From Lichina pygmaea (Eukaryota > Ascomycota > Lichinomycetes > Lichinales > Lichinaceae), in the NCBI GenBank assembly GCA_963422465.1, contig OY730175.1:3162001-3226000 (forward strand): DNA of 64,000 nt, given 5' to 3'. Position numbers and translations under genes: made by a program. Shown here in pieces: positions 5,611-52,009 of this stretch; within the stretch, counting starts at the first letter, position 1, and each line of letters begins with the position of its first letter. The notes under the pieces are model-generated. The model saw only the letters and a list, made by a program, of their open reading frames with translations, was not told where the DNA came from and did no database searches.

Positions 5611-5881
5611 TGTGACAAGGCAATGGCAGAGCAGAACTTGAGCCTAACTGATTCAGTAACCTTGACCTGACTTGGCTTAAGACTTGAGACTTGGATTGAT
5701 GTACAAGACGAAAGACAAGGAAGGAAGAAAAAGAGAAAAGAAGAAGAGAAGAAGCTAGGGGAGTAGGAGAAGTTCTTATAGGCAGGGGATACAGTGGAGC
5801 AAACAGGCAACAGTGCAGATGGAACTTCCCAGCAAGGTGTGTGACTTGTGCCAGATATGCAACTGGGCCAGAACTGTGACA
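5611..5881 (-). repeat. LTR of family 2 (3' LTR of copy 2a)
   Basis: It runs from TGTGACAAGG to AACTGTGACA on the plus strand, 271 bp. It pairs with 17159-17425 and matches the LTRs of copy 2b at 37832-38177 and 49208-49521. It contains a purine-rich stretch (about 5710-5760) and, on the minus strand, a TATAAGAAC start-like box. Confidence 0.9.
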
Positions 5882-5889
5882 TTACCCCC

Positions 5890-9679: not shown

Positions 9680-10185
9680 GTAGACTTGGTGGTGGTTGTG
9701 GTGGTGGCAACAACAGGCATGCTTTTCACTGGACAGAAGGTTGAGACATGACCTTGGTTCCCACAGTAGAAGCAGAGGCCTTTGCTTCAGCGATGTTCTT
9801 GCTCTTCTGGTGTCAGCTTAGAGTGGCTGAGATCTATAGTAGGACTTGGTGGCTGTGGTGTGAAGACTGGCTTGATGAACCCTGGACGCAGAACTGAAGC
9901 TCCTGACTGTGGAACTGAGGCTTGGGTGGGAGGTGCTTGACGTGGACAGTGAGAGTTGGCAGAAGTGGTACACAACTGGTTGTCCTGTAGCTGGCATTCC
10001 TCAACAAGCTTCTGATAGCTGATGTCCTTGAGGTTGATGCTGACAAGCTGCTTGGCAAGCTCTTCAGAGACAGTGCATCGAAGATGGTACTTCAAGGCCT
10101 TGTTGTTGAAGCCTGTGCATGGAGTATACTGATTGAACTCTGTGAAGAACTCAGCAAAGGAACAGTTAGCCTGACGCAAGACGAT
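9680..10185 (-). pseudogene. gag of copy 2a, C-terminal part (left of the 3a insertion)
   Basis: It contains the end of the capsid region (SFAEFFTEFNQYTP, then KYHLRCTVSEELAKQLVSIN) and a zinc knuckle near 9.75 kb of the form CFYCGNQGHVSTFC. The N-terminal part lies at 16687-17158, separated from it by copy 3a. It is a broken fossil. Confidence 0.75.
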
Positions 10186-10659
10186 TGTTAAGGGCCAGTC
10201 CACGTTCACACAGAATGTGGGTGGTCCTGTCTTCGACCGAGGAGGGCAGGGACTCAATAGATGAATAGCAAGTGGGGTAACTCTCTTGCTATTGTCGCTC
10301 GTAATGTGCGTTCAGCCTGGAGAGCTAATCCCTCCGGGCTCTTTGGGGGTCTTTATACAGATGCCCCAAGGGGGGGGGTCTCCTCGAGGGGTATCATCCT
10401 TTTGCGTGGACGAGCTCCTCGCTTAGCTCCTGCTTGTCCACCGGACGAGCTCCTCGCTTAGCTCCTGCTCGTCCACCGGACGAGCTCCTCGCTTAGCTCC
10501 TGCTCGTCCACCGGACGAGCTCCTCGCTTAGCTCCTGCTCGTCCACCGGACAAGCTCCTCGCTTAGCTCTTGCTCGTCCACCAGATCGGTCGGATGTTGT
10601 TCCGCATGACTCACACCTCTCCCTCGCTTACCTGGGCTGTTCCGGCCTAGGCCTTAACA
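10186..10659 (-). repeat. LTR of family 3 (3' LTR of copy 3a)
   Basis: 474 bp, from TGTTAAGGGC to GGCCTTAACA on the plus strand. It holds five tandem 35-bp units at about 10405-10585, each containing GAGCTCCTCGCTTAGCTCCT followed by a GTCCACCGGA-type spacer. On the minus strand a TATAAAGACC box sits near 10355 in the direction of gag-pol transcription, the likely core promoter. Confidence 0.93.
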
Positions 10660-10783
10660 CTATCCCCTCCCTCCAAGGGTTCTGTCCCCAGATCCTTTTT
10701 GTTCCTGCTCCTCTTTTGCCATGAACCAAAGCCAGACAACTTGAACTTGTCGTCGCAGTTTTCTCTCTTGTCGTGTTGGCAAA

Positions 10784-11293
10784 ATGGGCAAGGAATCAAA
10801 GATCGCATGCGGTGCTTGTCATCGCGACCACGCCAAGTGTGTTGTGAGTTCTGCATCGTCTTTTTGTCGTCGGTGCATCGAGAAGGGTCGTCGCTGCGAC
10901 CTTCATCTCTCGGAATCGGAATGGAAGAAGATGGAGCTTGAGCGTGAGCAGCTCGAGGCTCAGCTGCGGGAGACTGATGACCAACTGTCAAAACTGCTTC
11001 CCCGGCAGATCCGCCTCCGCCGGCAGCTGGGTCGTCTCTCACAGAAGGAGGCTGATGCCATCCGTCGTGAGCTGTCAGCCATCGAGGATCAAGAGTCCCT
11101 CGATGCTCAGGAACAAGAGGCCCTCCGCATTATCCGCGAACGGGAGGCCCGTCAAGCTGCTGCTCCACCGTCCTTTGAGGACGTCTTCTCTTCGGAGGCT
11201 TTGGCTTCTCTCGAGCTGTTATCTCCGTCAGACCTGGTCGCTGCGGATTTGCTCGGTGGTAATCCACCAGTTTCCGGTTCATCGCAGAGCTGA
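10784..11293 (+). CDS. Antisense Zn2Cys6/coiled-coil protein encoded by Ty3 copy 3a
   Basis: A 169-residue open frame runs opposite to gag-pol, starting about 125 bp inside the 3' LTR and overlapping the last roughly 160 bp of pol. Cys 9, 12, 19, 28, 31 and 38 give C-x2-C-x6-C-x8-C-x2-C-x6-C, the spacing of a fungal Zn2Cys6 binuclear cluster. Residues about 45-130 are rich in Glu, Arg, Gln and Leu with heptad-like periodicity (ELEREQLEAQLRETDDQL), so a coiled coil is likely. The tail is acidic and Ser-rich and ends GSSQS. The same ORF is found in copy 3b (about 43086-43595) and, decayed, in 3c. Family knowledge: Zn2Cys6 proteins bind DNA, often as coiled-coil dimers. A role in regulating or silencing the element is only inferred. 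From memory, small fungal proteins of this type are often annotated as hypothetical. Confidence 0.8.
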   Translation: MGKESKIACGACHRDHAKCVVSSASSFCRRCIEKGRRCDLHLSESEWKKMELEREQLEAQLRETDDQLSKLLPRQIRLRRQLGRLSQKEADAIRRELSAIEDQESLDAQEQEALRIIREREARQAAAPPSFEDVFSSEALASLELLSPSDLVAADLLGGNPPVSGSSQS

Positions 11294-14200
11294 AGTTCTC
11301 GGTTGGTTCCCACGAATTCTCCTCTTCGTCAAATCCTAACCACTTCACCAGGTACTCGATTTTCCGTCCGCTTCTCCGACTGTCTAGGATCCTTTCGACA
11401 TCGTACTCTTCTTCATCGTCCTCGAAGTGCCATTCTGTTTCGATTGCTGCGTCGCTGGGTGCTGGCTCGAGCAGCGAGACATGGAATACTCGGTGTATCC
11501 GTGCCTTTTTTGGCAGTCTCAGTCGGTAGTTGACTTCTCCAGTGCGCTTCTCAATCTCAAACAGTCCGATTCGTACATGATCCAGCTTTTTGCTCGGTCG
11601 CTTCGAGCGCAGGTTTTTTGTTGACAAATAGACCTTATCCCCCCTCTCCAGGGTTGGTCCCTTCAACCTTTTGCTGTTTAGGCGGTGGCTTGTTGTCTTT
11701 TGTGCGGATTCAATTGCAGTCTTCATTTCCTCATGCATAGCAGTGAGTTTTTCGATGTTCGTTGAAGTGCCACTTCCAGCCGCCATCGCTTCCCAGCGGG
11801 GGTTTCTGCCGTAGTTCGCAAAGAACGGCGTCATGCCCGTCACGCTGTGTTGCTGATCGTTGTACGCAAACTGAGCCATTGGTAGCAGTTCTACCCAATC
11901 GTCCTGTCAGTGGTTGACGTAGTGGCGTAGGTACTGTTCCATCGTCTGGTTTGTTCTCTCAGTTTGTCCGTCTGTTTGTGGATGGTAGGCAGTAGACATC
12001 CTCGTGTCTATCCCTAGCTGTCTTGTCCACGTGTTCCAGAATTTCGAGGTGAAGAGTTTGTCTCGATCCGAGATAATCTTCGTGGGTAGCCCTCGCTGGC
12101 TAACCAATTCTTTGAGCAGGACATTGGCGAGTTCGCTCGCTGTTCCTGTCTCTCGCCACGGGATCAGGTGAGCGTATTTGGTGAGTTTGTCAACAACCAC
12201 CAAGATACTGTCATATTTCACCTTTGTTACCAGGTCCTCTGACCTCGGCAGCTTCACCACAAAATCCATTGTGATAGTATCCCAAGCCACTTCTGGGAGG
12301 TCCATTTGTTGACTCTCTCCATAGGGTTTGTGGCGTGACGGTTTGTTTTTCGCACACTCTTCGCAGTTGCGAATAAATTCCGTCACTTTCCGCTTCATTC
12401 CGTTGAAGTGGTAACGTCTCCAGATCTTTTCCAGGGTCTTGTCTCGCCCAGGATGTCCGTGTAGAGGTCCATCGTGATGTTGTCGAATCACGTCCTCTTG
12501 TGCGCTCTCTGGCACTTCTTCCTTGTTCGTGGCCGCAACGTTGTGGCCTAGGGTCAGGAGTGCACCCATTTCTTCAGTTCTCGCTAACTGAGGTTGAGCA
12601 TAGACCAGAGTTTGTCCTTTTGTCACTAGGATTGGGCGCTCTTCTGTCGTGTCGTCTGTCGTCATATCAGGCCGTCTGCTAAGCGCGTCCGCTCGTGCGT
12701 TTTCTGATCCTTTTCGATAGAAGATCTGGAAGTCGTATGAAGCTAAAAGCTCCGCCCATCGGACTTGTCGTCTGTTTAGCTTCTTCGTCGTCGTGAAGTA
12801 AGCCAAATTCTTGTGGTCTGAGTACACGTCCACTGTGTACTTTGCTCCTTCCAGGTAAGGTCTCCACTCCTGGAATGCGTCGACAATCGCTAACAACTTC
12901 TTGTCATGAACATCGTACCTGAGTTCTGGGCCAGAGAACTTTCTCAATCGGTATGCGACAGGGTGTAGGCGGTTTTCGGCGTCTGGTTGACACAAGCAAG
13001 ATCCAAGTGCTTGGTCCGAGGCATCTGTCTCCATGATGATCCGCCGTCCGGGATCAAATGATGCCAGTATGGGTGCGGAGGTGAACTTCTCTTTCAGCTC
13101 CTGGAACGCTCTCTCTTGGCTGTTCCCCCATGTGAAGGTTTCTTCCTTCTTTGTTAGTTCAGTCAAGGGTGCTGCTGTCCTCGAGTACTCCTTGATGAAT
13201 CGTCGGTAGAAGTTCGCAAATCCCAGGAAGGATTGGACTTCTTTGAGGTTTTTGGGTGTTGGCCAGTCTCGTACTGCCGTGATCTTTGTATCGTCCATAC
13301 GGATTCCTTCCGTCGTCAGGATCGATCCCAAATATTCCACTTCTTTCACGTGGAAGACGCTCTTATCAAGGCGTAACCTCATTCCTGCTTCTTGGAGCGC
13401 ATGTAGGATCTTCTTGACATGCTGTTTGTGCTCCTCCAGGGTTCCATTGGTGTAAACCAAGACATCGTCGATATAAGCGGTAACAAATATATCCAGGTAT
13501 TGTCGGAGGATGGCGTTAATGAGCGATTGGAACATCGCCGGTGCATTCGTAAGGCCGAATGGCATAACGGTATACTCGTAATGCCCGTACCTCGTACGAA
13601 AGGCTGTCTTCCATTCTTCGCCATCTTTCATCCTAACCAGGTTGAAAGCGCCTCGGATGTCGAATTTGGTAAACCACTTGGCTCCTTGGATTCAGTCCTG
13701 GATTTCCGATATTAACGGTAGCGGGTAGCGATTCTTAATCGTGATCGCATTGAGCTGCCGGTAGTCGACACACAGTCGTAATTTGCCGTCTTTCTTTGGC
13801 ACAAACAATATCGGGTATCCGGCCGGTGATGTTGAAGGTCTTATGAACCCTTTCGCTAGGTTCTCGTCCAGGTAATCTCTTAAGGCCTCAAGCTCCTTTG
13901 CTGATAGAGCGTAAATAGGGCCATGTGTGGGTTTCTTTCTGTCTTCCAGCGGAATTTCGTGATCCCACTCTTGGTGTTCTGGTAGCGTCGCGACCACTTC
14001 CTCACCAAACATCTCCTGGTAGTCTTTATACTCACTTGGCAGCTGCGGTGCCTGAGTCTCGCCCACGGCGTCATGCGTGGTGCAAAGTTGATGGTTTCGG
14101 GGCTTCATCCAAGCCACATAGGCTCGCCCTCGCCGGTGGTGCTTCTTCCACCCTGCATATGAGATCTCTTTGATTCTCACTTTCTCTGGCTCTGCTCGAG

Positions 14201-14717
14201 TTGCCAGACTCCTCTTCGGAAAGACTAGGTGCCTTCTTTTCCAGTCGATCCTTGGGTTTTGACTTTCCAACCACGGAAGACCCAATATAACTTCATGTGG
14301 TATCTGGACCAAGTCGAATTCTTCTGATCCGATTGTCGTACCGTCGACACACAGTCGTAGGTTCTTGGTCTCCTTCGTCACTCGTCCTTGGTCGTTGGAG
14401 AGTGGTGTCCCGTCCACTACCGTTAGTTGGTATGGATTCCTCTTTTCCTGAGTCGGGATCTTGTGCTTCCTGGCAAAACTTTCTGACATGAAGTTGCCAG
14501 TAGCTCCAGAGTCGATCATGGCGTTTGTCAGATGCCCGTTGACTCTCATCTTGATGCGAAAATGCGGACTGCAGGCTGTCGTGTCGAGGCTCTGCTCGAC
14601 CCCTTCTCTCCGGAGTGTTGTCTTGCCTGCTCTTCCGACTCCGGATTTGAAGAGCACTGCTAGTTTTTTGAACAACCAAGACCCTGAGCCTGGCGTTCTG
14701 CCGCGTGTCTTTCGCAT
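11130..14717 (-). pseudogene. pol region of Ty3 copy 3a (PR, RT, RNase H, integrase, chromodomain)
   Basis: On the minus strand, in order: protease with [11 protein letters not shown] (about 14.5 kb); RT with [11 protein letters not shown] (about 13.75 kb) and AYIDDVLVYTNG (about 13.45 kb); RNase H with DASDQALGS and YSDHKNLAYF (about 13.0-12.8 kb); integrase with an HHCC zinc domain (HGHPGRD to CEECAKNK, about 12.4 kb) and a core ending HPQTDGQTERTN (about 11.95 kb); and a C-terminal chromodomain (EYDVERILDSR to EYLVKWLGF, about 11.4 kb). The chromodomain class integrates at marked chromatin. The region has only a few interruptions. Confidence 0.9.
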
Positions 14718-15037: not shown

Positions 15038-16204
15038 TCATCGGAGTAGTGGTGTCTCGGGAACTGGTGGCATGCCGGTTATGTCAATCTCGTAGTCTGT
15101 TGTGTCGAATTCGGAGATCAGGTCATCCTCCCAATGAACCTTATCGATCTGGTCTTGGATTGTGTGCAGGTCCTCCAGTGACCTCTGCAGATCGTTCTCC
15201 AGTCTTTCGATATGCTGTCTGAGATTGTCCTCCTGTCCGAGGAGTGTTGCTTCTGACCGGTTCATGGGTAGCGTGCCTCTGGGAGCCCTCGGTGGCTCCT
15301 GAATGCCCTTGCCTTTCCAGGCACCGGTGGCATTCAACTGCTTACCCTTGCCTTCTTTCTTCTTCTTGCTTTGGCAGTTGGCTGCGAGGTGTCCTACCTT
15401 CTGGCAATTGTAACACTTCCGTGTTTCTTTCTTCTTTGTTGCCTGTGGTGTTGTTGCATCGATCTCTATGGGTGTCAAGCCGTACTTGTCTTGTGCTGGC
15501 GCTGTCTTTTTGCCCCATGGCCTTGCATGCTTGCCTCGCTTCTCGAGTTCTTGTTCAAACTGTCGGTCGTCGATGCGTACCGCTGTGTCGATCATATCCT
15601 CGAGGTCGGTGGGTCGGTCTCCTCGTGCGATGTCATCCTTGACTTGTTCCTTGAGAGCTTGGTAGAATAGTGCCGTCAAGGCACTGTCTCCCCATTGCGT
15701 CCTCACTGACAACTGTTGGAACTTCGCCGCAAAGTCTGATGCTGACCCTGTCTGCCGTAGTGCTTGGAGCTTTCGTTCCGCATCTTGTTCTTCATCAACA
15801 ACCCCAAAGGTCTTCTTCATCTGGGTCTTGAAGGTAGAGAATCTCCCAATGATCTGCCGTGTCGTGGTCTCCATACTAGAGGGATCTTCCTTGTTGTCGA
15901 GGAAGTCTCGTAGGTAGACATTAAACCAGGCAAATGTCGGTCCGTCCAGGTAGGAAGCTGCGAACAGCACCTTCTCCTGTTCCGTAGGGAATTGTGCGGC
16001 GTTGAATCCGTAGTAAAGCTCAAGCTGAGAGAAGAATAATTCCAATCCCCCTCGTGATCCATCGTACCTCTTCGGCGTACCTACCTTCAACGGCTTTGGA
16101 GGTAAGGTGAGGGTGGTAGGGACAGGTGGTTCCTGGGCTTGCGCCTGAGGCGCAGCCCGAGGTTGGCCTGCCTGCGAAGGGGTAGGGCTGCGTGGATCTG
16201 CCAT
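15038..16204 (-). CDS. gag polyprotein of Ty3 copy 3a
   Basis: A 388-residue open frame. The N-terminus is Pro/Ala/Gln-rich; the capsid-like region contains KRYDGSRGGLELFFSQLELY and then FAASYLDGPTFAWFNVYL; one CCHC zinc knuckle, CYNCQKVGHLAANC, lies near residue 265; the C-terminus is acidic. It starts shortly inside the 5' LTR. It looks whole, in keeping with the young age of the element. Confidence 0.85.
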   Translation of the reverse strand: MADPRSPTPSQAGQPRAAPQAQAQEPPVPTTLTLPPKPLKVGTPKRYDGSRGGLELFFSQLELYYGFNAAQFPTEQEKVLFAASYLDGPTFAWFNVYLRDFLDNKEDPSSMETTTRQIIGRFSTFKTQMKKTFGVVDEEQDAERKLQALRQTGSASDFAAKFQQLSVRTQWGDSALTALFYQALKEQVKDDIARGDRPTDLEDMIDTAVRIDDRQFEQELEKRGKHARPWGKKTAPAQDKYGLTPIEIDATTPQATKKKETRKCYNCQKVGHLAANCQSKKKKEGKGKQLNATGAWKGKGIQEPPRAPRGTLPMNRSEATLLGQEDNLRQHIERLENDLQRSLEDLHTIQDQIDKVHWEDDLISEFDTTDYEIDITGMPPVPETPLLR

Positions 16205-16242
16205 CGTATTGAGCTGGTGTCCTATGTGTTAGAGGCTGAAAC

Positions 16243-16681
16243 TGTTAAGGGCCAGTCCACGTTCACACAGAATGTGGGTGGTCCTGTCTTCGACCGAGGA
16301 GGGCAGGGACTCAATAGATGAATAGCAAGTGGGGTAACTCTCTTGCTATTGTCGCTCGTAATGTGCGTTCAGCCTGGAGAGCTAATCCCTCCGGGCTCTT
16401 TGGGGGTCTTTATACAGATGCCCCAAGGGGGGGGGTCTCCTCGAGGGGTATCATCCTTTTGCGTGGACGAGCTCCTCGCTTAGCTCCTGCTCGTCCACCG
16501 GACGAGCTCCTCGCTTAGCTCCTGCTTGTCCACCGGACGAGCTCCTCGCTTAGCTCCTGCTTGTCCACCGGACGAGCTCCTCGCTTAGCTCTTGCTCGTC
16601 CACCGGATCGGTCGGATGTTGTTCCGCATGACTCACACCTCTCCCTCGCTTACCTGGGCTGTTCCGGCCTAGGCCTTAACA
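16243..16681 (-). repeat. LTR of family 3 (5' LTR of copy 3a)
   Basis: 439 bp, essentially identical to 10186-10659 apart from carrying four rather than five 35-bp units. It is followed directly by the ACGAT target duplication (16682-16686) and then by the gag of copy 2a. Confidence 0.93.
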
Positions 16682-16686
16682 ACGAT

Positions 16687-17158
16687 AAGCTTCCTCTGAG
16701 CTAGGAACTCTGGGTCTGGGTCAGAGAAGGTGTTCCGGAGATCTTGGACAATGTTGTGCCAGTCAATGTACTGGCCAGCTGTGATCTTAGCTGAGATTTA
16801 GGACTGCGCAGTGCCAGTCATGCGTGAAAAGACATACGCAATCTGCGATGTTTCTGTGGGGTACCAGTCAGTGTTGAGTGTCATCTTGAGTGACAGTGAC
16901 ATGATGAAGCTCTCAAGCTTCTTATGCGTGATTTCTGTGTTTCCACCATCACCACTGAAGATCTCTGGGTCAGCAGTACATTCAGACTTGGACTTGGGAG
17001 TGGTGTTGGTAGCTTGAATTCACATGAACTCTGCAAACATGTTGCGAAGAAACTTGTTATTTCCAGCAACTGGCATAGCTTAGTCTGGTTGTTGAGACAT
17101 GACAAGGACGTGAACATGGCTTGGTGAAGTGTGTTATGGTTGGGTAGGTCTTTTGTAG
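16687..17158 (-). pseudogene. gag of copy 2a, N-terminal part (right of the 3a insertion)
   Basis: The minus-strand reading starts just inside the 5' LTR. It encodes a region that is almost the same as 48754-49200 in copy 2b, with the recognisable stretch ITAGQYIDWHNIVQDLR. It is the first part of the family-2 capsid protein. It is a broken fossil. Confidence 0.75.
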
Positions 17159-17425
17159 TGTGACAAGGCAATAGCAGAGCAGAACTCAAGTCTAACTGAT
17201 TCAGTAACCTTGACCTGACTTGGCTTGAGACTTGAGACTTGGATTGATGTACAAAACAAAAGACAAGGAAGGAAAAGAGAAAAGAAGAAGAGAAGAAGCT
17301 GGGGGAGCAGGAGAAGTTCTTATAGGCAGAGGATACAGTAGAGCAAGCAGGCAACAGTGCAGATGGAACTTCCCGGCAAGGTGTGTGACTTGTGCCAGAT
17401 ATGCAACTGGGCCAGAACTGTGACA
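17159..17425 (-). repeat. LTR of family 2 (5' LTR of copy 2a)
   Basis: 267 bp, from TGTGACAAGG to AACTGTGACA on the plus strand. It is followed by GTTTA (17426-17430), which with the TAAAC at 4933-4937 makes a target-site duplication once the inversion of 4933-5610 is allowed for. Confidence 0.9.
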
Positions 17426-42961: not shown

Positions 42962-43085
42962 CTATCCCCTCTCTCCAAGAGTTCTGTCCCCAGATCCTTT
43001 TTGTTCCTGCTCCTCTTTTGTCATGAACCAAAGCCAGACAACTTGAACTTGTCGTCGCAGTTTTCTCTCTTGTTGTATTGGCAAA

Positions 43086-43595
43086 ATAGGCAAGGAATCA
43101 AAAATTGCATGTGGTGCTTGTTATCACGACCACGCCAAGTGTGTCGTGAGCTCCGCATCATCTTTTTGTTGTCGGTGTGTTGAGAAGGGTTGTCACTGCA
43201 ACCTTCATCTCTCAGAATCAGAATGGAAGAAGATGGAACTTGAGTGCAAGCAGCTCAAGGCTCAGCTGTGGGAGACTGATGACCAATTGTCAAAGTTGCT
43301 TCCCCGGCAGATCTGCCTCCACCAGCAGCTGGGTTGTCTCTCACAGAAGGAGGCTGATGCTATCTGTTGTGAGCTGTCTGCCATCAAGGATCAGGAATCC
43401 CTTGATACTCAGGAACAGGAGGCTCTCCGTGTTATCCGCGAACAGGAGGCCAGTCAGGCTGCTGCTCCACTGTCCTTTGAGGACATCTTCTCTTCAGAGG
43501 CTTTGGCTTCTCTTGAGCTGTTGTCTCTGTCAGACCTGGTCACTGCGGGTTTGCTTGGTGGTAATCCACCAGCTTCTGGTTCATCGCAGGGCTGA
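43086..43595 (+). pseudogene. Antisense Zn2Cys6/coiled-coil ORF of copy 3b
   Basis: Homologous to the 169-residue ORF of copy 3a at the same place and strand. All six Cys of the cluster are kept, as are the coiled-coil stretch (KKMELECKQLKAQLWETDDQ) and the GSSQG end. The frame is open over the last 149 codons (43146-43595). Most replacements against 3a are Arg to Cys, Gln, His or Trp, the signature of CpG decay in CGN codons. It is a fossil relative to 3a but shows that the ORF is a stable part of the family. Confidence 0.7.
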
Positions 43596-48753: not shown

Positions 48754-49207
48754 GAACTCTGGGTCTGGGTCAGAGAAGGTGTTCCAGAGATCTTGGATGA
48801 TGTTGTGCCAGTCAATGTACTGGCCAGCTGTGATCTTAGCTGAGATGTAGGACTGCGCAGTACCAGTCGTGCGTGAAAAGATGTACGTAATCTGCGATGT
48901 TTCTGTGGGGTACTGGTCAGTGTTGAGTGTCATCTTGAGTAACAGTGACATGATGAAGCTCTCAAGCTTCTCATGTGTGATTTCTGTGTTTCCACCATCA
49001 CCACTGAAGATCTCTGGGTCAGCAGTGCATTCGGACTTGGACTTGGGAGTAGTGTTAGTAGCTTGAATTCACATGAACTCTGCAAACATGTTGCGAAGGA
49101 ACTTGTTATTTCCAGTAACTGGCATGGCTTGGTCTGGTTGTTGAGACATGACAAGGACATGAACATGGCTTGGTGAAGTGTGTTATGGTTGGGTAGGTCT
49201 TTCGTAG
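48754..49207 (-). pseudogene. gag of copy 2b, N-terminal part
   Basis: Matches 16687-17158 of copy 2a. It contains MTLNTDQYPTETSQITYIFS and ITAGQYIDWHNIIQDLW. It begins just inside the 5' LTR of 2b. It is a broken fossil. Confidence 0.75.
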
Positions 49208-49521
49208 TGTGATGAGGTAATGGCAGAGCAGAACTCAAGCCTAACTGATTTGGTAACCTTGACCTGACTTGGCTTGAGACTTGAGACTTGAATTGATGTA
49301 CAAGACAAAAGACAAGAAAGGAAGAAAAAAAGAAAAGAAGAAGAGAAGAAGCTGGGGGAGCAGGAGAAGTTCTTATAGGCAGGGGATCAGGCAACAGCAG
49401 AGCAAGCAGGCAACAGTGCAGATGGGACTTCCTGGCAAGGTGTGTGACTTGTGCCAGATATGCAACTGGGCCAGAGGTGTGTGACTTGTGCCAGATATGC
49501 AACTGGGCCAGAACTGTGACA
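49208..49521 (-). repeat. LTR of family 2 (5' LTR of copy 2b)
   Basis: 314 bp, from TGTGATGAGG to AACTGTGACA. It also carries a short tandem duplication near its right end (GTGTGTGACTTGTGCCAGAT occurs twice, about 49440-49500). It abuts remnant 3c. Confidence 0.87.
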
Positions 49522-50479
49522 AAGATAAAGAGAACTTGTGAGAACCCACCAAGAATGTCAGCCCTGTGACAAACCTGAAGCTGCAGGATTTTCATTAAGA
49601 AAACCCACAGAAGCCAGGACTGATGGAGACAAAAGTCTGAGAGAAGCCAAAGTCTCTGAAAAGAAAAGATCACCTAGATTTGGCAGAGAAACTACACACA
49701 GAGTCTTCTGCTCAAGAGTCTCTTAGTTCTTGATTACAGTGAGCTCACACTTGATAGTGTTATTCTTCTTCTTGGACAACAAACCCAGCTGCTTGCAAAG
49801 ACAGATCTTGTGAGGAAGAAGCTGTGACTTCTACTTCTTAATATCCTGCAGCTGAGTCTTGAACTGAGTATACGTAAGCTTTATCTTTTTCTATTCTGAT
49901 TCTGCAAGATGAAGATTGTAACAGTAACTCTTCTTGATATACCAACCACAAGATATAGACTCTGAGCTGACAACACACTTGGTGTAGTTATAATAACATG
50001 TGCTGCATGAAACTTTGGACACCTTGCCTATTTTGCCAACACAAGAACTGAGAGCTCCACAATAGTTACAGTAAAATATCTGGAGTATAGTGAAAAGAAA
50101 GCAAGAGGATCTGGGGACAGAACTTTTGGAGAGAGAGGATAGTGTTAAAGCCCAGACCAGAACAGCTAAGCAAGTGTACAGAAGTACACAGAACAATGTT
50201 CACCTGACCTGGTGGCAGAGGTGGCAGAGAAGAGTGCTTCTTATCCAACTCTGCTATGCAGAAAGCTGATACTTCTGAGAGAGAACTCTCTCTCTCAGGC
50301 TTCTGTATATAAGAGAACCCAGATAGCTGGGGAGAATAGCTCTCCAGACTGAACACACAATACCAGAGACAATAGCAAGAGAGTTACCTATCTTGCTATT
50401 CATCTATTAAGTCTCTGCTCTTCTTACCCAGACATGCAGACCACTCACATTCTGTGTGAACATAGACTGGCCTTTAACA
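49522..50479 (+). mobile_element. Family-3 remnant 3c (antisense ORF region and LTR)
   Basis: The LTR lies at 50143-50479 (TGTTAAAGCC to CCTTTAACA), in the opposite orientation to 3a and 3b. Left of it lies the antisense-ORF region, read here on the minus strand, from the cluster SCSTCYYNYTKC near 49.97 kb back to a diverged GSSQS-like end near 49.57 kb. The rest of the element is missing; LTR 2b cuts it at 49521. It is old and badly broken. It is inserted in copy 1c, whose integrase resumes at 50480. Confidence 0.78.
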
Positions 50480-51570: not shown

Positions 51571-52009
51571 TGTTAAGGCCTAGGCCGGAACAGCCCAGGT
51601 AAGCGAGGGAGAGGTGTTAGTCATGCGGAACAACATCCGACCGATCCGGTGGACGAGCAAGAGCTAAGCGAGAAGCTCGTCCGGTGGACGAGCAGGAGCT
51701 AAGCAAGGAGCTCGTCCGGTGGACGAGCAGGAGCTAAGCGAGGAGCTCGTCCGGTGGACGAGCAGGAGCTAAGCGAGGAGCTCGTCCACGCAAAAGGATG
51801 ATACCCCTCAAGGAGACCCCCCCCCCTGGGGCATCTGTATAAAGACCCCCAAAGAGCCCGGAGGGATTAGCTCTCCAGGCTGAACGCACATTACGAGCGA
51901 CAATAGCAAGAGAGTTACCCCACTTGCTATTCATCTATTGAGTCCCTGCCCTCCTCGGTCGAAGACAGGACCACCCACATTCTGTGTGAACGTGGACTGG
52001 CCCTTAACA
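51571..52009 (+). repeat. Solo LTR of family 3 (young)
   Basis: 439 bp, from TGTTAAGGCC to GCCCTTAACA, nearly identical to the LTRs of copy 3a (reverse complement) with four 35-bp units. Perfect duplication AGTGT (51566-51570 and 52010-52014). It sits inside the tandem array of the old family-1 LTR. Confidence 0.94.

Follow-up and report, generated by a model that had tools for sequence, protein, structure and literature searches.

Does a small open reading frame (ORF) that runs antisense to gag and pol at the 3' end of a fungal retrotransposon encode a protein of its own, and what might such a protein do for the element? The question is raised by a Ty3/chromodomain element of Lichina pygmaea, located in a stretch of 64,000 nucleotides (contig OY730175.1 of assembly GCA_963422465.1, positions 3,162,001 to 3,226,000 of the forward strand), which is called the window here and whose own numbering is used throughout. 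Our analysis shows that the antisense ORF is real, beyond chance, and that it is under purifying selection. Its probable product is a DNA-binding protein of the Zn2Cys6 kind that dimerises through a coiled coil, and we give somewhat better than even chances to the reading that it acts in trans as a regulator of the long terminal repeat (LTR) of its own element.

The ORF and its parts are given below with the supporting evidence in brackets, where dN/dS is the ratio of nonsynonymous to synonymous substitution rates and AF2 an AlphaFold2 model.

10784..11293, plus strand: antisense ORF of 169 amino acids, from ATG to TGA, with Zn2Cys6 cluster, long helix and acidic/Ser-rich tail (ORF translation, dN/dS, AF2)
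10808..10897, plus strand: probable Zn2Cys6 cluster, Cys1 to Cys6, residues 9-38 (Cys spacing, dN/dS, sub-threshold Pfam Zn_clus, Foldseek)
10913..11161, plus strand: predicted long helix (coiled coil), residues 44-126 (AF2)
11171..11290, plus strand: C-terminal acidic/hydrophobic, Ser-rich tail, overlapping the end of pol (ORF translation)
10721..10783, plus strand: in-frame upstream extension present in other copies, closed in the window copy by TGA at 10742-10744

The ORF begins shortly past the 3' LTR, and its reading direction leads away from that repeat. Both its length and its location on the strand opposite to gag-pol agree with the initial annotation, which had placed it between the end of pol and the 3' LTR; this placement holds for the first 346 nt, which lie outside pol, but not for the last 164 nt (11130-11293), which overlap the end of pol, so that the pol stop codon (11130-11132) falls inside the antisense ORF. 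The exact spacing C-x2-C-x6-C-x8-C-x2-C-x6-C, already recognised there, was found again and lies within the range of the Pfam family Zn_clus (PF00172), which is C-x2-C-x6-C-x(5-12)-C-x2-C-x(6-8)-C. Residues 44-126 were modelled by AF2 as a single long helix, with a predicted local distance difference test score (pLDDT) of about 95 over most of it, and the composition of the acidic/hydrophobic tail suggests a resemblance to an activation domain.

The Cys pattern occurs twice in the real window (in this ORF and in a copy at 43110) and in none of 100 Markov-simulated windows of 64 kb. As open frames of at least 182 codons were present in 40 of the 100 simulated windows, ORF length alone is no evidence, and it is the Cys pattern together with selection that carries the case.

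To follow the ORF through the genome, the window protein, denominated type A, was searched against it; of 279 candidates 150 were scored, every one of them a match with 74-100% identity, so that the genome holds at least 150 copies, and 35 of these (hand count) have an internal stop. A second search, started from the database protein P0054 (61% identical; 150 of 291 candidates scored), revealed two further types, namely type B with 61 copies of 85-94% identity, eight of them with stops (hand counts), and the older, decayed type C, of which six fetched copies showed 60-66% identity and a stop each. In total 50 A, 14 B and 6 C loci were fetched in addition to the two other window copies, and all 70 fetched loci, which had been chosen by the ORF, carry it in the same retrotransposon position; the C locus L070, which has no canonical end, was left out of the codon alignment. 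The other window copies are the following.

43023..43592, plus strand: second copy of the antisense gene, type A, in which the ATG before the Zn cluster is lost (ATA at 43086), open over Zn cluster and coil
49561..50103, minus strand: third, old copy, type C, with three internal stops and lost Cys
50117-50479: diverged LTR belonging to the third copy

The initial annotation had the ORF recurring in two further copies of the element (3b and 3c); these do exist, but both are disabled. The A copies (L001-L050) decay chiefly by CpG transitions, with 363 copy-events at 55 CpG opportunities in codons 22-136, often changing Arg to Cys, His or Gln. Codons are counted here in the extended frame, in which the start codon before the Zn cluster is codon 22 (L001-L064).

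For the comparison between subfamilies 12 young A copies and 11 B copies were used, over a block of 106 codons before the indel and the pol overlap. In this block dN/dS was 0.15 (dS 1.35, dN 0.21), as against 1.21 and 2.80 in the other two frames of the same strand and 1.00, 0.40 and 2.22 in the three frames of the opposite strand. The ratio was 0.10 in the Zn cluster (codons 22-64), 0.19 in the coil and 0.22 over all 136 codons before the pol overlap; when only transversions were counted, which avoids the CpG decay, 0.21 and 0.25 were obtained for cluster and coil. The six-Cys pattern is retained between A and B at a dS above 1. Within the 50 A copies, non-CpG transitions common to at least two copies numbered 29 synonymous and 9 nonsynonymous, with opportunities of 105:174 (p=1.4e-6), which corresponds to a ratio of about 0.19, and singletons were 10 to 12 (p=0.29; Fisher p 0.024 for shared versus singleton), all these p-values being optimistic because the copies are related. 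A pol control of 577 bases gave 51:39 shared variants and a ratio of 0.41.

In the overlap with pol the antisense frame showed a ratio of 0.46 and the pol tail one of 1.03 (last 55-61 codons of four A and three B copies, a fourth B copy giving no tail), so that the constrained reading there is the antisense gene and not pol. This comparison had been proposed as a check beforehand, and it bears on the suggestion that the frame is open merely through coding constraint on the pol strand or through codon bias. The overlap itself and the frequency of long open frames in the simulations would fit such a suggestion, as would one opposite-strand frame that is also open in two of three A copies checked. 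However, most of the ORF lies outside pol, that opposite frame is the one with a ratio of 2.22 and is interrupted by 2-4 stops in both B copies examined, and pol is the unconstrained partner in the overlap; the suggestion is already contradicted and we regard it as hardly credible.

A different view is that antisense RNA or antisense promoter activity matters and that the ORF is a by-product. The position of the ORF at the 3' LTR would suit this view, and antisense LTR transcripts with roles at the RNA level are discussed for other elements in the available part of a review (PMC7264820). The constraint is however one at the level of amino acids, with a ratio of 0.15 as against 0.40-2.8 in the five other frames, and it includes the six Cys, which renders this view quite improbable.

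Several observations weigh against a gene that is still maintained. No constraint was detected within B, neither by dN/dS (0.83 in 11 copies) nor by shared non-CpG transitions (3 synonymous to 7 nonsynonymous in 14 copies). Among the 50 A loci the start codon before the Zn cluster is intact in 38 and reads ATA in the other 12 (one of them young, L004), and among the 14 B loci it is intact in 12 and reads ATA in 2; in some of the ATA loci, such as L004, an in-frame ATG is left only upstream, in a stretch with no visible constraint. Zn2Cys6 proteins being typical fungal regulators, the gene could be a regulator captured from a host that was once useful to the element and now decays along with it in this genome, which would account for the many copies with CpG decay, stops or lost ATG and for the absence of detectable selection within B. 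We consider this unlikely, since the 12 young A copies used are all open and variants common among A copies are mostly synonymous. The comparison of B with C gave a ratio of 0.40 overall, but of 1.37 on few transversions (1.9 synonymous and 12.7 nonsynonymous per pair); the latter would fit the decay of C and does not support constraint. An upstream start, giving 190 amino acids, was judged unlikely to be constrained, as dN/dS of the extension between A and B is 0.98. A ratio near 1 across young copies had been named in the initial annotation as one of the results that would speak against a gene; it was approached only within B, and not between the subfamilies or among the variants shared within A.

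With regard to the identity of the protein, the Foldseek matches of the structure models for A and B are almost only Zn2Cys6 DNA-binding domains. The likeness to the fungal Zn2Cys6 regulators GAL4, PPR1, PUT3, HAP1 and LEU3 lies in the Cys spacing, the predicted helix after the cluster and the predicted fold, whereas the window protein differs from them in being short and retrotransposon-borne, in its Pfam score and in its contact loop. A series of points speaks against the assignment. Taken one by one, none of the fold matches reaches significance (best E values 0.11 and 0.28), Zn_clus stays below its gathering cut-off of 21 bits (15.3 for the window ORF, 20.0 for the best protein, P0008) and it is not listed at E<=1 for four of eight further proteins (P0002, P0004, P0007 and P0059). 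The DNA-contact loop is atypical, with Asp-His in A and Asp-Arg in B at what we take to be the positions of the lysine pair of Gal4. A sequence search of the PDB gave six matches up to E 10, led by RING finger 141 (E 0.59), with CYP1/HAP1 as the sole Zn2Cys6 match in the last place (E 4.2). As evidence of identity the PDB matches (E 0.59-4.2) were rejected as too weak.

Protein searches retrieved 69 relatives with the single sequence and 93 with an alignment, all of them ENA entries that carry no protein name, with identities from 98% down to 40%, and additionally one weak match of 80 amino acids that came with no alignment. No clearly different protein family was among these database matches, in a search dependent on shared words of five residues. 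The initial proposal of an antisense Zn2Cys6/coiled-coil gene in a Ty3 element finds support in the number of copies, in the selection and in the predicted fold.

The element that carries the gene lies on the minus strand and was recognised as a Ty3/chromodomain element by its LTRs, target-site duplication, gag, the order protease, reverse transcriptase (RT), RNase H, integrase, and its chromodomain. Its parts are listed below; U3, R and U5 denote the unique 3', repeat and unique 5' regions of the LTR.

10186..10659, minus strand: 3' LTR, 474 bp
16243..16681, minus strand: 5' LTR, 439 bp, one 35-bp unit shorter (LTR pair comparison)
10181..10185: left copy of the 5-bp target-site duplication ACGAT
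16682..16686: right copy of the target-site duplication ACGAT
10660..10680, minus strand: probable polypurine tract adjoining the 3' LTR, assigned by sequence and position
15038..16204, minus strand: gag, with capsid and CCHC zinc knuckle
11130..14717, minus strand: pol, with protease, RT-RNaseH, integrase and chromodomain, and in-frame stops at 11907-11909 and 13692-13694
10405..10582: tandem repeats of 35 bp within U3, with the palindrome GCTCGTCC-N3-GGACGAGC, candidate binding sites

The two LTRs of the window copy, to which this figure applies, differ by four transitions and one transversion in 440 aligned bases, plus the one 35-bp unit.

A comparison of the types along the element shows that old, divergent versions (A, B and C) of one block ride on a nearly common backbone, A and B elements being about 97% identical in the compared parts outside this block. 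Between A and B the C-terminus of the integrase is 97.6-98.5% identical, with no transversions in 330 bp, R-U5 is identical over 120 bp, and R-U5 of the 5' LTR, leader and gag start of one B element are 93-100% identical to A per 60-base window. The pol tail, the antisense ORF, the stretch preceding it and U3, in contrast, are only 67-75% identical and show 12-15% transversions. One boundary of this block lies at about 10310-10330, near a TATA-like TATAAAG of the minus strand that ends at 10357, and may be near the expected U3/R border; the other is gradual and lies in the chromodomain, at about 11300-11480 (11300-11450 about 91%). The C copies L065 and L067 likewise show 0-1 transversions in about 330 bp of the integrase segment relative to A and B (L069 was not alignable there); type C possesses a U3 and ORF of its own, nearer to B (2.6-4.2% transversions in the ORF), and R-U5 is different (81%) in the single copy examined. 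The types of U3, ORF and tail are concordant in all 50 A and all 14 B loci, and the six C loci combine C-type ORFs with a U3 that scores as B (5) or C (1). Such a boundary is what first-strand transfer between two co-packaged RNAs would predict. The minus-strand strong-stop DNA may jump to the 3' end of the second RNA, whose U3 and antisense gene would then be copied before a switch back within pol, so that gene and U3 would move jointly.

Both U3-A and U3-B repeat the half-site GTGGACGAG. In U3-A it is contained in 35-bp units with the palindrome GCTCGTCC-ACC-GGACGAGC, and the unit of U3-B is a longer one of different sequence, in which GGACGAG occurs in direct and inverted orientation. The latter motif was counted 8 and 5 times in the two U3s, where shuffled sequences gave means of 0.12 and 0.07, and both U3s contain the 12-mer CTCGTCCACCGG (3 and 2 times). 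The excess of GGACGAG cannot count as independent support for binding, given the tandem nature of the units and the common ancestry of A and B. Each of the 50 A copies has between 1 and 7 occurrences of a marker of the U3 unit next to it, and half-sites are fewer in older A copies.

Given the position of the gene, the selection on it and its co-inheritance with U3, we infer that it would be transcribed from or beside the 3' LTR, and that its product would dimerise and bind the half-sites repeated in U3. Through this binding the protein would control how its own element is transcribed, in the sense and/or antisense direction, and its acidic/hydrophobic tail may point to activation. Among the three roles considered in the initial annotation this regulation of the LTR is the best supported, because U3 and gene change jointly and both U3 types repeat the same half-site; nothing was found in favour of integration targeting or of counter-silencing. 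Against LTR regulation it has to be said that the shared half-site may reflect common descent, that it is absent from the decayed C LTR in the window, and that U3 and gene are adjacent, so that their co-inheritance requires no functional link. The protein could hence be real and selected and yet act elsewhere, on host promoters, in steering integration beside the chromodomain or in counter-silencing. Neither selection nor a Zn2Cys6-like fold names a target, and we take this alternative seriously as the less probable one, as the shared half-site repeats are concentrated in both U3s and the chromodomain may already offer targeting. Tentatively, and with more doubt than for LTR regulation as such, gene and U3 may form a swappable cognate cassette, in which each type has its own Zn-cluster regulator, encoded on the reverse strand, and its own array of U3 sites for that regulator; template switching would swap both onto a gag-pol backbone common to the types, and A, B and C would be separately controlled circuits of a single genome.

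In the surroundings, LTRs of a different, older Ty3-like element were recognised by eye at 5612-5886 and 17157-17425, and the element described here seems to have inserted into it; by eye, the 3' LTR of the older element leaves little room for an antisense gene. A similar LTR sequence borders the third antisense copy near 49200-49512. Another LTR of the described family, in minus orientation and 91% identical to 10186-10659, lies at 51571-52009; a tblastn search gave no match to the antisense gene beside it, and it may be a solo LTR or part of a truncated element. The bases after the 5' LTR (GTTTCAGCCT, 16200-16242) are almost complementary to a segment close to the presumed start of the mRNA (AGGCTGAAC, about 10310-10320), presumably as in self-priming of the Tf1/sushi type.

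Antisense genes in Ty3 elements are already known. One of them, brtn of the Boty-like Ty3 elements of Botrytis cinerea, was reportedly described by Zhao et al. in Virology in 2011. In the accessible descriptions it appears as an extra gene in antisense orientation, belonging to a fungal gag-pol element that has a chromodomain (PMC4227169, PMC8365987), and one transcript of Monilinia is described as showing similarity to both BRTN and a truncated Pol (PMC5987419). By description, then, the Botrytis case resembles ours in being an antisense extra gene of a fungal chromodomain element, but these descriptions mention neither a Zn cluster nor an exchange of U3. In plants, as far as the available sections tell, antisense additional ORFs lie between pol and the 3' LTR in Grande (gene23), RIRE2 and Retand (TRP28), of which TRP28 is predicted to bind DNA and was proposed to be regulatory (PMC11963269, PMC7264820). 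Place and orientation are those of the window ORF; however, TRP28 belongs to another protein family, described as known from flowering plants only, the Retand lineage is non-chromovirus, the repeats are located outside the LTR, and no exchange of gene and U3 is described in these sections.

HBZ of human T-cell leukaemia virus type 1 (HTLV-1) is a basic leucine zipper (bZIP) factor that acts on LTR transcription. As an antisense retroviral gene it has a nuclear product with a role in the virus lifecycle (PMC11963269), and the available part of the review reports an antisense promoter in the 3' LTR of HTLV (PMC7264820). The analogy is one of layout only, as HBZ is a bZIP and not a Zn2Cys6 protein and comes from a retrovirus, and no homology is claimed. 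Tnt1 is a Ty1/copia element. Its superfamily in Solanaceae comprises, in the sections available, subfamilies told apart mainly by U3, which was interpreted as modular evolution (PMC1838419); the exchanged module there is a U3 with no such gene, whereas here the block includes the gene of a probable DNA-binding protein.

In the literature searched, mostly at the level of titles and abstracts, no Zn2Cys6 antisense gene in a Ty3 element was found. The main text of a Blastomyces LTR paper mentions neither antisense nor zinc nor ORF, and that of a 2026 Histoplasma genome paper does not mention antisense; a Histoplasma tiling-array study, by its available description, left out MAGGY repeats and cannot show antisense transcripts here. 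The Zn2Cys6 identity and the joint exchange with U3 look new, and neither these nor a measured selection on such a gene turned up in the literature searched, with the reservation that a protein of this kind may already be on record in the original brtn paper.

What antisense genes do at the 3' ends of LTR retrotransposons is called undetermined in the available parts of a 2020 review and a 2025 survey (PMC7264820, PMC11963269). A small selected protein with the look of a well-studied class of DNA-binding proteins, encoded beside palindromic LTR repeats, makes the question of its role directly testable. If true, the joint exchange of regulator and promoter would be a novel means by which retrotransposons alter their regulation.
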